From an uncultured Bacteroidales bacterium (lineage in GTDB: Bacteria; Bacteroidota; Bacteroidia; Bacteroidales; Paludibacteraceae), in assembly GCA_949282265.1 (NCBI GenBank), contig CASDOZ010000004.1, forward strand, positions 62,001 to 126,000: a DNA stretch of 64,000 nt, given 5' to 3'. The notes below the pieces were generated by a model. That model did no database searches. It was not told the origin of the DNA and saw nothing but the letters and a program-made list of their open reading frames with translations. Shown piece by piece: positions 41,857 through 50,181 of this stretch (position 1 is its first letter; each line of letters begins with the position of its first letter). Both the position numbers and the translations under genes were made by a program.

Positions 41857-43221
41857 TTAGACCAATGTTTCAATCTGATCCAGATTTTTTTGGATTTCCT
41901 CGTCTGTCATGGCATAATTAACCAAGTTGCCTGACAAATATTGGTCGTAAGCCGACATATCGACCAAGCCGTGTCCGCTCAGATTGAATAAAATGGTTTT
42001 TTTCGTGCCTTCTTCTTTGGTAATGTTTGCTTCACGGATTGCCGCTGCAATGGCATGGCAGCTTTCCGGCGCAGGAACGATACCTTCGCAACGTGCAAAT
42101 AAGACACCAGCTTCAAACGAGTCTAACTGCTTGATATCAACGGCTTCCAGCCGGTTTTCTTTCAGCAACTGACTGACAATGGTACCCGCACCGTGATAGC
42201 GCAATCCACCTGCATGGATGTTAGCCGGGGAAAAATTGTGTCCGAGTGTAAACATTGGTATCAGAGGCGTATAACCGGATTCATCCCCAAAATCGTACTG
42301 GAATTTTCCGTGTGTCAATTTTGGGCATGAGGCCGGTTCGGCCGCGATGAAACGCGTTTTTTTACCATTCAGAATATTGTGCCGCATAAATGGGAACGAG
42401 ATGCCGCCAAAGTTGGAGCCGCCACCGAAGCAACCGATAACAATGTCGGGATATTCGCCGGCCATTTCCATTTGTTTTTCTGCTTCCAGTCCGATGATTG
42501 TCTGGTGCAGGGTTACATGGTTCAGCACGCTGCCGAGTGCATAACGGCAGTTCGGCGTCTGCATGGCCAGTTCCACCGCCTCCGAAATGGCAGTGCCGAG
42601 CGAGCCTTGGTAATTGGGGTGGTCGGTCAGGATTTTGCGGCCGGCTTTCGTGCTCATGCTGGGTGAAGCTATGACTTGCGCGCCCCATGTCTGCATCAAC
42701 GAGCGGCGATATGGTTTTTGCTCGTAGCTGATTTTCACCATATAAACCGCCAGTTCCAGGCCAAATGCCTTGCTGGCGAACGACAAGGCAGTTCCCCATT
42801 GTCCTGCCCCTGTTTCGGTTGTTACATTCGTTATGCCATCTTGTTTCAGATAATAAGCCTGTGCCAAAGCCGAATTGAGTTTATGTGAACCTACCGGGCT
42901 TACGCTCTCATTCTTGAAATAGATATGTGCCGGGGTGTCCAATGCTTTTTCTAATTCGTAGGCACGTACCAATGGGGTCGAACGGTAGATTTTGTATTTG
43001 TCGCGTACCTGTTCGGGGATGTCAATCCAAGCATCGGTTTCGTTCAATTCCTGGTCGGATGCGCCTTTGGAAAACAACGGATACAAATCTTCGGGTTTCA
43101 GAGGCTGTTTTGTCCCCGGATTCAGCATTGGCATGGGTTTGGTCGGCATATCAGCCACAATATTATACCATTGGGTCGGTATTTCCTTTTCGGGAAGCAG
43201 AAATTTTTTTGTCTTGTCCAT
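41857..43221 (-). CDS. trpB: Tryptophan synthase beta chain-like PLP enzyme (TrpB2 type)
   Basis: A 454-residue stand-alone TrpB of the TrpB2 subgroup, longer than TrpB1 and with the characteristic N-terminal region (PTQWYNIVADMPTKPMPMLNPGT). The PLP lysine is in SPVGSHKLNSALAQ, the activation motif is TETGAGQWGTALSFA, and the phosphate-binding loop is GCFGGGSNFGG. It condenses serine with indole to give tryptophan, without a TrpA partner. No other trp gene is adjacent. A leader peptide with a WWW run and a terminator upstream show that it is controlled by tryptophan attenuation. A role in indole salvage is plausible. Confidence 0.92.
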   Translation of the reverse strand: MDKTKKFLLPEKEIPTQWYNIVADMPTKPMPMLNPGTKQPLKPEDLYPLFSKGASDQELNETDAWIDIPEQVRDKYKIYRSTPLVRAYELEKALDTPAHIYFKNESVSPVGSHKLNSALAQAYYLKQDGITNVTTETGAGQWGTALSFASKAFGLELAVYMVKISYEQKPYRRSLMQTWGAQVIASPSMSTKAGRKILTDHPNYQGSLGTAISEAVELAMQTPNCRYALGSVLNHVTLHQTIIGLEAEKQMEMAGEYPDIVIGCFGGGSNFGGISFPFMRHNILNGKKTRFIAAEPASCPKLTHGKFQYDFGDESGYTPLIPMFTLGHNFSPANIHAGGLRYHGAGTIVSQLLKENRLEAVDIKQLDSFEAGVLFARCEGIVPAPESCHAIAAAIREANITKEEGTKKTILFNLSGHGLVDMSAYDQYLSGNLVNYAMTDEEIQKNLDQIETLV

Positions 43222-43283
43222 AACTTTGTTTTTTAGATGTTACTTGATTTGCTTTTATGTTTGTTTTTATATCCGGATAATAA

Positions 43284-43321
43284 TAAAAAAAGCTATTGTC
43301 CAACTGATAAACAATAGCTTT
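43284..43321 (-). terminator. Attenuator terminator in the trpB2 leader
   Basis: Stem AAAGCTATTGT with ACAATAGCTTT (plus-strand positions 43289-43299 and 43311-43321), 11 bp, followed on the minus strand by seven T. It lies 63 bases upstream of trpB2, after the leader peptide stop. Confidence 0.92.
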
Positions 43322-43369
43322 GAATTTTATGTGTAGTCCTATTATGAAAAATACATACCTTGCAACGAC

Positions 43370-43435
43370 TCAACTCCATTGTTTATCATCGAAGTTGCGC
43401 CACCACCAATTGTTATTGAATCGAATGAATTGCAT
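43370..43435 (-). CDS. Tryptophan leader peptide (21 codons) of trpB2
   Basis: ATG at 43435 and TGA ending at 43370 give 21 residues with Trp at positions 10, 11, 12 and 20 (the core reads NNNWWWRNFDDKQWS). Four Trp codons in a 21-codon reading frame is extreme by chance. It starts about 25 bases after the expected transcription start of a consensus promoter and stops 48 bases before an intrinsic terminator. Its codons 16-20 form the antiterminator half. The peptide probably has no function beyond ribosome pausing. It is analogous to TrpL of enterobacteria but unrelated in sequence. Confidence 0.88.
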   Translation of the reverse strand: MQFIRFNNNWWWRNFDDKQWS

Positions 43436-43466
43436 GTATGTACTTGTTGTGTTCCTAAAACCGCGG

Positions 43467-43497
43467 CAAATATACGGATTATTTCTAAACCGACAAA
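43467..43497 (-). promoter_or_regulatory. Promoter of the trpB2 leader (TTTG-N19-TATATTTG)
   Basis: Minus-strand -33 TTTG at 43494-43497 and -7 TATATTTG at 43467-43474, just after the folC stop. Confidence 0.83.
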
Positions 43498-43523
43498 TTT
43501 TTTATCGAAAAAATGTGATTTTA

Positions 43524-44798
43524 TTATTTTTCCGCCGAATCTGTTTCATTCCGAAAGTATTCTTGGCTATCTGCCAGAAATTCACCGACCACAAAATTAC
43601 TGCCGCCGACAAACACTAGGTCATCCCGCGTCGCCGCCGATACGGCTTGCCGGCAGGCTTCGGAAACGCTATTGAATGCAGTACCATGTAAATCTGCTTC
43701 TACCGCCATTTGCAGTAAGGTCGTTGCTGGCATGGCGCGTGGTGTCTGGGCTTGCGTGAAATAATAAACGGCCTGCGGAGGCAACAACTTCAATACGTCG
43801 GCAATGTCTTTGTCGCGCACCATGCCCAGCACGACATGCAATGTGCGGCAAGGATATTGTTTCAACTGTTCGGCTACGTAACGTATGCCATGTGCATTAT
43901 GTCCCGTGTCGCAAATGATGGCAGGATTTTCATGCACCAATTGCCAGCGTCCTTGTAGGCCGGTCAATGTGCAGACATGCGCATAACCATCCAGCAACGC
44001 ATCATCAGAAACCAAGAAACCTGTTTCACGCAACACCCGAATGGCTGTATAGACGGTTTGTTTGTTTTTTTGCTGGTATATGCCATGCAATTCACAAGGG
44101 AAATCAGGACATGCCGGTTCTTGGTCGGCAAAAAGAATGCGGCTGTTGCAATCGGCTGCCTTCTGCAAAAAAACAGGAGCTGTTTCCGGCTGTGTCTCAC
44201 CGATAATGACTGGTACGCTTGGTTTGATGATGCCGGCTTTTTCACTTGCAATTTTTTCCAGCGTATCGCCCAGAAATTCGGTATGGTCAAAACCGATATT
44301 CGTAATGACGCTCAACTCCGGCATTATGACATTGGTGCTGTCAAGGCGGCCGCCTAATCCTACCTCAATGACAGCAATGTCCACTTGCTGCGTGGCAAAC
44401 CAGGCAAATGCCATGGCCATGGTACACTCGAAGAAAGAAGGTTTCACTTCATCCAACAGACACCGATAACGTTCCACGAAATCAATCACATAACCGGGGG
44501 CTATTTTTTGTCCGTTTATCCGTATGCGTTCCCCGAAATCAACCAAATGTGGCGACGTGTAAAGTCCTGTCTTGTAGCCAGCTTGCTGTAAAATGGCCGC
44601 CAATAAATGAGATGTGGAACCTTTTCCGTTTGTTCCAGCCACATGGATGCTTTTGAAACGCCGGTGTGGATTGTCCAGCGCAGCCAATAGTTTGTTCGTA
44701 TTCTCGAATCCTGGTTTGTATGCTGCTTGTCCGACCAGATGGAACGCAGGTTGCGAAGCATATAAATAATCGAGTGTTTCCTGATAGGTCATATTCAA
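43524..44798 (-). CDS. folC: Bifunctional folylpolyglutamate synthase/dihydrofolate synthase
   Basis: A 424-residue Mur-ligase-fold enzyme that adds glutamate to dihydropteroate and folates. It has the ATP loop HVAGTNGKGSTSHLLAAIL, the SPHLVDFGERIRING block, the VGLGGRLDSTN omega-loop and ICDTGHNAHG of the C-terminal domain. Length is normal for FolC. It starts MNMTYQETLDYLY; the second Met (44792) is an alternative. It is divergent from prmA and ends 27 bases before the trpB2 promoter. Confidence 0.94.
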   Translation of the reverse strand: MNMTYQETLDYLYASQPAFHLVGQAAYKPGFENTNKLLAALDNPHRRFKSIHVAGTNGKGSTSHLLAAILQQAGYKTGLYTSPHLVDFGERIRINGQKIAPGYVIDFVERYRCLLDEVKPSFFECTMAMAFAWFATQQVDIAVIEVGLGGRLDSTNVIMPELSVITNIGFDHTEFLGDTLEKIASEKAGIIKPSVPVIIGETQPETAPVFLQKAADCNSRILFADQEPACPDFPCELHGIYQQKNKQTVYTAIRVLRETGFLVSDDALLDGYAHVCTLTGLQGRWQLVHENPAIICDTGHNAHGIRYVAEQLKQYPCRTLHVVLGMVRDKDIADVLKLLPPQAVYYFTQAQTPRAMPATTLLQMAVEADLHGTAFNSVSEACRQAVSAATRDDLVFVGGSNFVVGEFLADSQEYFRNETDSAEK

Positions 44799-50036: not shown

Positions 50037-50064
50037 GGCTGTTTAGATATTTGATTATGGAGCA

Positions 50065-50094
50065 CAAAAATATCGCAATTATTATAATTGACAA
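50065..50094 (-). promoter_or_regulatory. Promoter of the OmpA/PD40 gene (TTG-N19-TATTTTTG)
   Basis: Minus-strand -33 TTG at 50092-50094 and -7 TATTTTTG at 50065-50072. Confidence 0.7.
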
Positions 50095-50181
50095 TAGTTT
50101 GATGAATCTATTTGTTTTTTTCGTGTTTCTTTTTGTCGGTTGTTTCAAATTTGTTGCTTAAGATGCGCTGCGTAGCAATAA

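Follow-up and report, generated by a model that had tools for sequence, protein, structure and literature searches.

A probable ribosome-mediated tryptophan attenuator upstream of a stand-alone trpB2 gene in Bacteroidales

In a Bacteroidales genome, sequence comparison and predicted RNA folding indicate that a ribosome-mediated tryptophan transcription attenuator very probably lies on the minus strand in the gap separating folC from a stand-alone trpB2 gene. Within the 64,000-nt stretch of DNA analysed (the window), this gap reads as a Bacteroides-type promoter, a 21-codon reading frame and a terminator, and all elements named in the original prediction are present on the minus strand: promoter, 21-codon frame with Trp codons at positions 10, 11 and 12 (43408-43400) and 20, terminator, and trpB2. 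The features are as follows.

43497-43494, minus strand: putative -33 promoter element TTTG, read from the sequence
43474-43467, minus strand: putative -7 promoter element TATATTTG (TANNTTTG), read from the sequence, 19-nt spacer from TTTG
43435-43370, minus strand: leader open reading frame MQFIRFNNNWWWRNFDDKQWS, 21 codons from the ATG at 43435 to the end of the TGA at 43370, from sequence and conservation
43397-43371, minus strand: predicted region 1:2 hairpin CAACUUCG...UGGAGUUG, from the MFE fold
43388-43376, minus strand: region 2, the predicted antiterminator strand TGATAAACAATGG, a 13-bp complement to region 3
43317-43305, minus strand: region 3, terminator 5' arm and loop CTATTGTTTATCA, from duplex energy and covariation
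43321-43285, minus strand: predicted intrinsic terminator, stem 43321-43289 and T-tract to 43285, from hairpin prediction and covariation
43221-41857, minus strand: trpB2, encoding a TrpB-like PLP enzyme of 454 aa, from profiles NF009057 and TIGR01415

TTTG and TATATTTG are presumably promoter elements, as they match the Bacteroides promoter consensus. Tandem codons for the end product lie in a short open reading frame upstream of the gene, and an intrinsic terminator separates the two, at the end of a 48-nt linker. The terminator stem has 11 Watson-Crick pairs, or 14 if G-U is counted, with T at 43291-43285; the 11 bp originally proposed are confirmed, and of the seven T proposed to follow them, three fall inside the stem if AAA:TTT pairs are counted. 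The gene looks monocistronic, since folC, upstream on the same strand, ends at 43524 and a second hairpin with a T-tract lies 3' of trpB2 (about 41838-41805). Elsewhere on the minus strand (41684-41609), a promoter-like TACTTTTG (41684-41677) stands upstream of a tagaturonate reductase gene, and a perfect hairpin TCCGTGTGCGCACACGGA (41666-41649) with a T run, then a 9-codon frame MKNLLTIKL, lies 5' of that gene; this is possibly another early terminator or leader.

The element had been called a complete attenuator on the strength of the parts named above, a description that did not include the antiterminator. It is the presence of this pairing, TGATAAACAATGG with CTATTGTTTATCA, that completes it: 43388-43376 is complementary to 43317-43305 over 13 pairs, one of them G-U, with a predicted duplex energy of -15.6 kcal/mol (1/200 shuffles as stable). 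The classic set of four regions can be assigned, with region 1 directly 3' of the Trp codons, region 2 at the leader end, region 3 in the terminator and region 4 as its 3' arm. In the MFE fold of the untranslated RNA, the region 1:2 hairpin sequesters the antiterminator strand.

These elements suggest the following mechanism. Transcription would start at about 43460, with a ribosome trailing RNA polymerase through the 21-codon leader. When charged tRNA-Trp is ample, the ribosome would get to the stop codon and mask region 2, the terminator at 43321-43289 would form, and transcription would end. When charged tRNA-Trp is scarce, the ribosome would stall at codons 10-12, its footprint covering region 1 and leaving region 2 (codons 16-20) free to pair with the terminator 5' arm and loop, so that no terminator would form and trpB2 would be transcribed. 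On this model trpB2 is probably switched on only under tryptophan shortage.

The distribution of the element was assessed in sequences of at most 450 nt upstream of trpB2, 181 in all, consisting of 80 named loci, the locus described here and 100 others of one family; dropping 7 duplicates left 174, among which two short sequences, L156 (200 nt) and L166 (266 nt), were scored as misses. Four of the family's 105 trpB2-type matches (G002, G035, G132 and G136) were omitted, being near contig ends. The family is probably Paludibacteraceae, given that loci named Paludibacter sp. and Paludibacteraceae have 200-nt upstreams identical to those of its members. Under a rule specifying a frame that starts with ATG and has 8-50 codons, a pair of Trp codons no more than 2 apart, and a terminator-like hairpin within 130 nt, the element was called in 53 of the 174 non-duplicate upstreams, so the search proposed at the outset, for a Trp-rich frame before a terminator upstream of trpB2, does find it recurring. 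Ten rounds of shuffling all 174 sequences gave no calls, and the rule applied to other amino acids gave 0-29, the next best being Asn (29) and Leu (22). Nine further leaders, picked by eye under relaxed conditions (a lone Trp, Trp codons further apart or GTG as the start codon), bring the total to 62/174. The remaining 112, including all those named Bacteroides or Parabacteroides, fit the rule in neither its strict nor its relaxed form, and the element is therefore not obligatory. Across other families of the phylum, the rule called 6 of the 29 trpB2 loci scanned, of 70 trpB2-type places listed; one of the 29, L252, is only 81 nt long. These six leaders (L249, L250, L251, L257, L258 and L262) are of the WWW or WW type, and four end in LP-containing tails (ALPLR, SLPA, SLPLF and SLPS).

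Upstream of the leader ATG, TANNTTTG occurs within 70 nt in 31/53 loci (mean 4.0 and maximum 9 in 50 shuffles). Within the leaders, W-W-R with TGGTGGCGC recurs in relatives, and it occurs in E. coli TrpL too; the peptide had been considered unrelated in sequence, which is true of the peptide as a whole but not of this motif. Seven loci (L004, L037, L115, L116, L119, L178 and L181) are down to one Trp codon, with Arg after it (W-R), and keep the terminator, possibly representing a weakened or decaying switch. Elsewhere in the genome described here, four weaker calls (scores 18.0-18.2) at L109, L110 (two) and L111 have tails without a T run longer than 3, and the L109 call and one of those at L110 are the same frame.

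The trpB2 locus is the sole Trp-pair leader with terminator called by the rule in the window. When the entire window was dinucleotide-shuffled 20 times, a WWW case never arose and Trp-pair cases numbered four altogether. Among the 30 TGGTGGTGG sites of the genome, only the trpB2 leader precedes a hairpin with a clear T-tract, and the genome's trpS locus (L264) has no Trp-pair frame by the rule. The leader RNA itself has a fold z of -4.56, with none of 200 shuffles equally stable. On the plus strand of the window, a short frame with four Ile codons is followed by a strong terminator (50057-50161); this may be chance, or the transcript end of a neighbouring gene.

The capacity for switching was modelled with transcripts truncated ahead of the terminator 3' arm and an assumed ribosome footprint of 12 nt. 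Averaged over the 53 loci, predicted pairing of region 3 with upstream sequence is 0.95 for a ribosome stalled on the last Trp codon and 0.62 for one that has reached the stop, as against 0.72 and 0.66, respectively, with shuffled linkers. For the locus described here the predicted values are 1.00 stalled, 0.11 at the stop and 0.82 untranslated, the last of which means that a simple basal-off state is unsupported. The stall-minus-stop difference exceeds 0.2 in 33/53 loci, and in only 21/53 are there no more than 4/40 shuffles with one as large. Several loci show no difference (e.g. L022, L047, L141, L157, L189 and L212), and L074 goes in the opposite direction (0.81 stalled versus 1.00 at the stop).

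The antiterminator duplex itself is predicted to be more stable than expected over the 53 loci (mean -14.9 versus -9.6 kcal/mol shuffled; Wilcoxon p = 3e-10), with no more than 10/200 shuffles as stable in 37/53, while that of L123 is no better than shuffled (107/200). By a cruder count, the longest single helix averages 7.3 pairs versus 5.5 shuffled, the excess being slight or nil in roughly one third of the loci. The free strand of many other relatives (GGTGG, GGAGGG or ATGGG) is predicted to pair with the loop and top of the terminator in addition to the 5' arm.

Covariation was counted in an alignment (A1) of 12 hand-chosen loci resembling the one described here, whose own sequence supplied the structure; a second alignment (A2) of 27 hand-chosen loci is excluded from the figures. 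For the antiterminator (10 pairs counted, 3 of 13 left out), 95.8% of cells are paired and covariation is 0.292 versus 0.152 shuffled. For the terminator, 100% are paired and covariation is 0.412 versus 0.243. In each case 0/500 shuffles, made without correction for shared ancestry, reach the observed value, and both signals drop away in slid controls. Two of the five covariation measures are less striking, namely the number of antiterminator pairs changed on both sides, which is 3 and unexceptional (61/500 shuffles reach it), and the terminator pair-type count (356/500). As antiterminator and terminator both covary, one strand appears to retain two alternative partners, and it is folding prediction and covariation that point to a mutually exclusive antiterminator set by ribosome position. 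In comparison with the sole congener, L113, whose TrpB2 is 96% identical, the best-kept parts are the leader (63/66 nt identical) and terminator (29/31), relative to the linker (34/49), the sequence before the leader (41/60) and that after the terminator (53/68). The covarying switch pairing and the recurrence in relatives bear out the proposal that a stand-alone trpB2 is under Trp attenuation.

Some other leader peptides act via translation or Rho, and it is conceivable, if unlikely, that this leader likewise acts on trpB2 translation, RNA stability or Rho access and not through intrinsic termination. The terminator lies 117-245 nt ahead of trpB2 in 10 of the 53 called loci, which is in keeping with such a role. 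However, all 53 have, as part of the rule, a hairpin with a T tail after the leader; in the 12 aligned loci this hairpin shows helix covariation, and here trpB2 starts 67 nt past it. Less likely still is that the terminator merely closes the folC transcript, the Trp-rich frame being a chance ORF. Intergenic terminators are ordinary and folC does end upstream on the same strand, but a promoter-like site and the leader intervene, and we reject both the chance ORF and the folC terminator readings on the recurrence of leader and terminator before trpB2 in 53/174 loci and on the joint covariation of their strands. Sensing of tryptophan by a T-box, TRAP-type or riboswitch element, as controls trp genes in other phyla, is barely credible and was rejected, since what is conserved is a frame with Trp codons, and since Rfam gives no match in the window at gathering and none in 43200-43560 even at E values as high as 1.

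Attenuation of transcription being the preferred reading, the locus was compared with the Rfam family Bacteroid-trp (RF01692), classed there as a tryptophan peptide leader, which marks canonical trp operons in Bacteroidetes. A WWW or WW leader with terminator is found in 14 of 20 canonical trpB1 upstreams fetched, from at least 45 trpB1 places; the peptides of these leaders (L215, L217, L218 and L224-L234) are unlike those of trpB2. The upstreams without a leader are L222 (159 nt only) and L216, L219, L220, L221 and L223, all genus g27. Two of the trpB1 leader loci, L224 and L226, were scanned with RF01692, which matches one of them. A more strictly filtered scan of 150 family genomes, in which 20 candidates per genome were scored and the cut-off was 49 bits, gave 16 matches, of which 13 lie no more than about 700 nt upstream of trpB1, two are on a trpA contig and one is unplaced. 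None lies at a trpB2 locus and none is in the genome described here; five genomes have sub-threshold matches at trpB2 leaders (28.9-34.0 bits). Direct scans of trpB2 loci gave 0/12 at gathering and 0/9 at E up to 0.1. Direct membership of the trpB2 locus in RF01692 was rejected, with nothing in the window or its genome reaching 49 bits.

The trpB2 product scores above the curated cut-offs of both TrpB2 profiles (NF009057, 702 bits versus 366; TIGR01415, 594.5 versus 518.85) and would use serine and indole to form tryptophan. In the genome (89% complete), nothing reached cut-off as canonical trpB, as trpA or as a chorismate-binding (TrpE) gene, and that of the congener (99% complete) likewise has no trpA above cut-off. 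Given the absence of the former genes, TrpB2 is probably the sole tryptophan-synthesis gene and fed external indole, which would presumably be scavenged, no other gene for tryptophan synthesis having been found in the genome. We take BT_RS23500, by its tag, to be a gene of B. thetaiotaomicron. This TrpB2 relative aided growth of an E. coli trpA mutant beside the wild type, in the authors' reading through the use of secreted indole (PMC11535334). Taken together, the missing genes and the related enzyme suggest that the bacterium is probably a tryptophan auxotroph in which TrpB2 serves for indole salvage.

Of 101 family genomes examined, 43 have the attenuator before trpB2, comprising 26/41 without trpA and 17/60 with trpA (Fisher p = 9e-4, ignoring relatedness and genome incompleteness). 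This difference is consistent with a broader reading that we favour, if by a modest margin over doubt: that there is a second Bacteroidota Trp attenuator class, outside Bacteroid-trp and dedicated to trpB2, kept as a starvation switch for the use of neighbours' indole in lineages without tryptophan synthesis. Amino-acid attenuation would then act on an apparent one-gene salvage step and not on a biosynthetic operon, in hosts that appear dependent on the indole or tryptophan of others. This would give a testable tie, within communities of Bacteroidota, from a lack of tryptophan to the use of indole. The 21-codon leader gene is likely to be overlooked by annotation, and its relatives offer dozens of natural variants for studies of RNA switches in Bacteroidota.

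Bacteroid-trp appears in Table 1 of Weinberg et al. 2010 (PMC2864571). With RF01692 listed since 2010, the suggestion that such a system is undescribed for this lineage was overstated, even though the family has no match here. A Flavobacterium psychrophilum transcriptome gives strong clues to leader-peptide attenuation ahead of amino-acid operons (PMC9723704), and short ORFs resembling leader peptides are noted in a map of B. thetaiotaomicron (PMC7366714). Our search of open-licence literature did not find a trpB2 attenuator class outside RF01692. Vitreschak (2004) reportedly mentioned attenuators in Bacteroidetes/Chlorobi, and trpB2 attenuators may therefore already have been predicted in print. 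Trp leaders in the Bacteroidetes lineage are already known, and the new part, well supported by comparison and modelling, would be a trpB2 class outside Rfam with an unusual single target. Predicted Trp leader attenuators are also described from actinobacteria, one of them before trpB2A in Corynebacterium diphtheriae (PMC1262725); these belong to another phylum, and by that account their trpB2 shares an operon with trpA. Bacteroid-trp and the element described here are alike as Trp peptide leaders of Bacteroidetes, and differ in that RF01692 sits at canonical trp loci while the latter sits at trpB2. The E. coli trpL attenuator (Rfam Trp_leader, RF00513) controls trpEDCBA by means of tandem Trp codons and alternative helices. 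The element shares with it these codons, the predicted 1:2, 2:3 and 3:4 helices and the terminator, whereas it precedes the single gene trpB2 and its antiterminator, over the 53 trpB2 loci, is predicted to lie partly in the terminator loop and not the arms (205/668 pairs).
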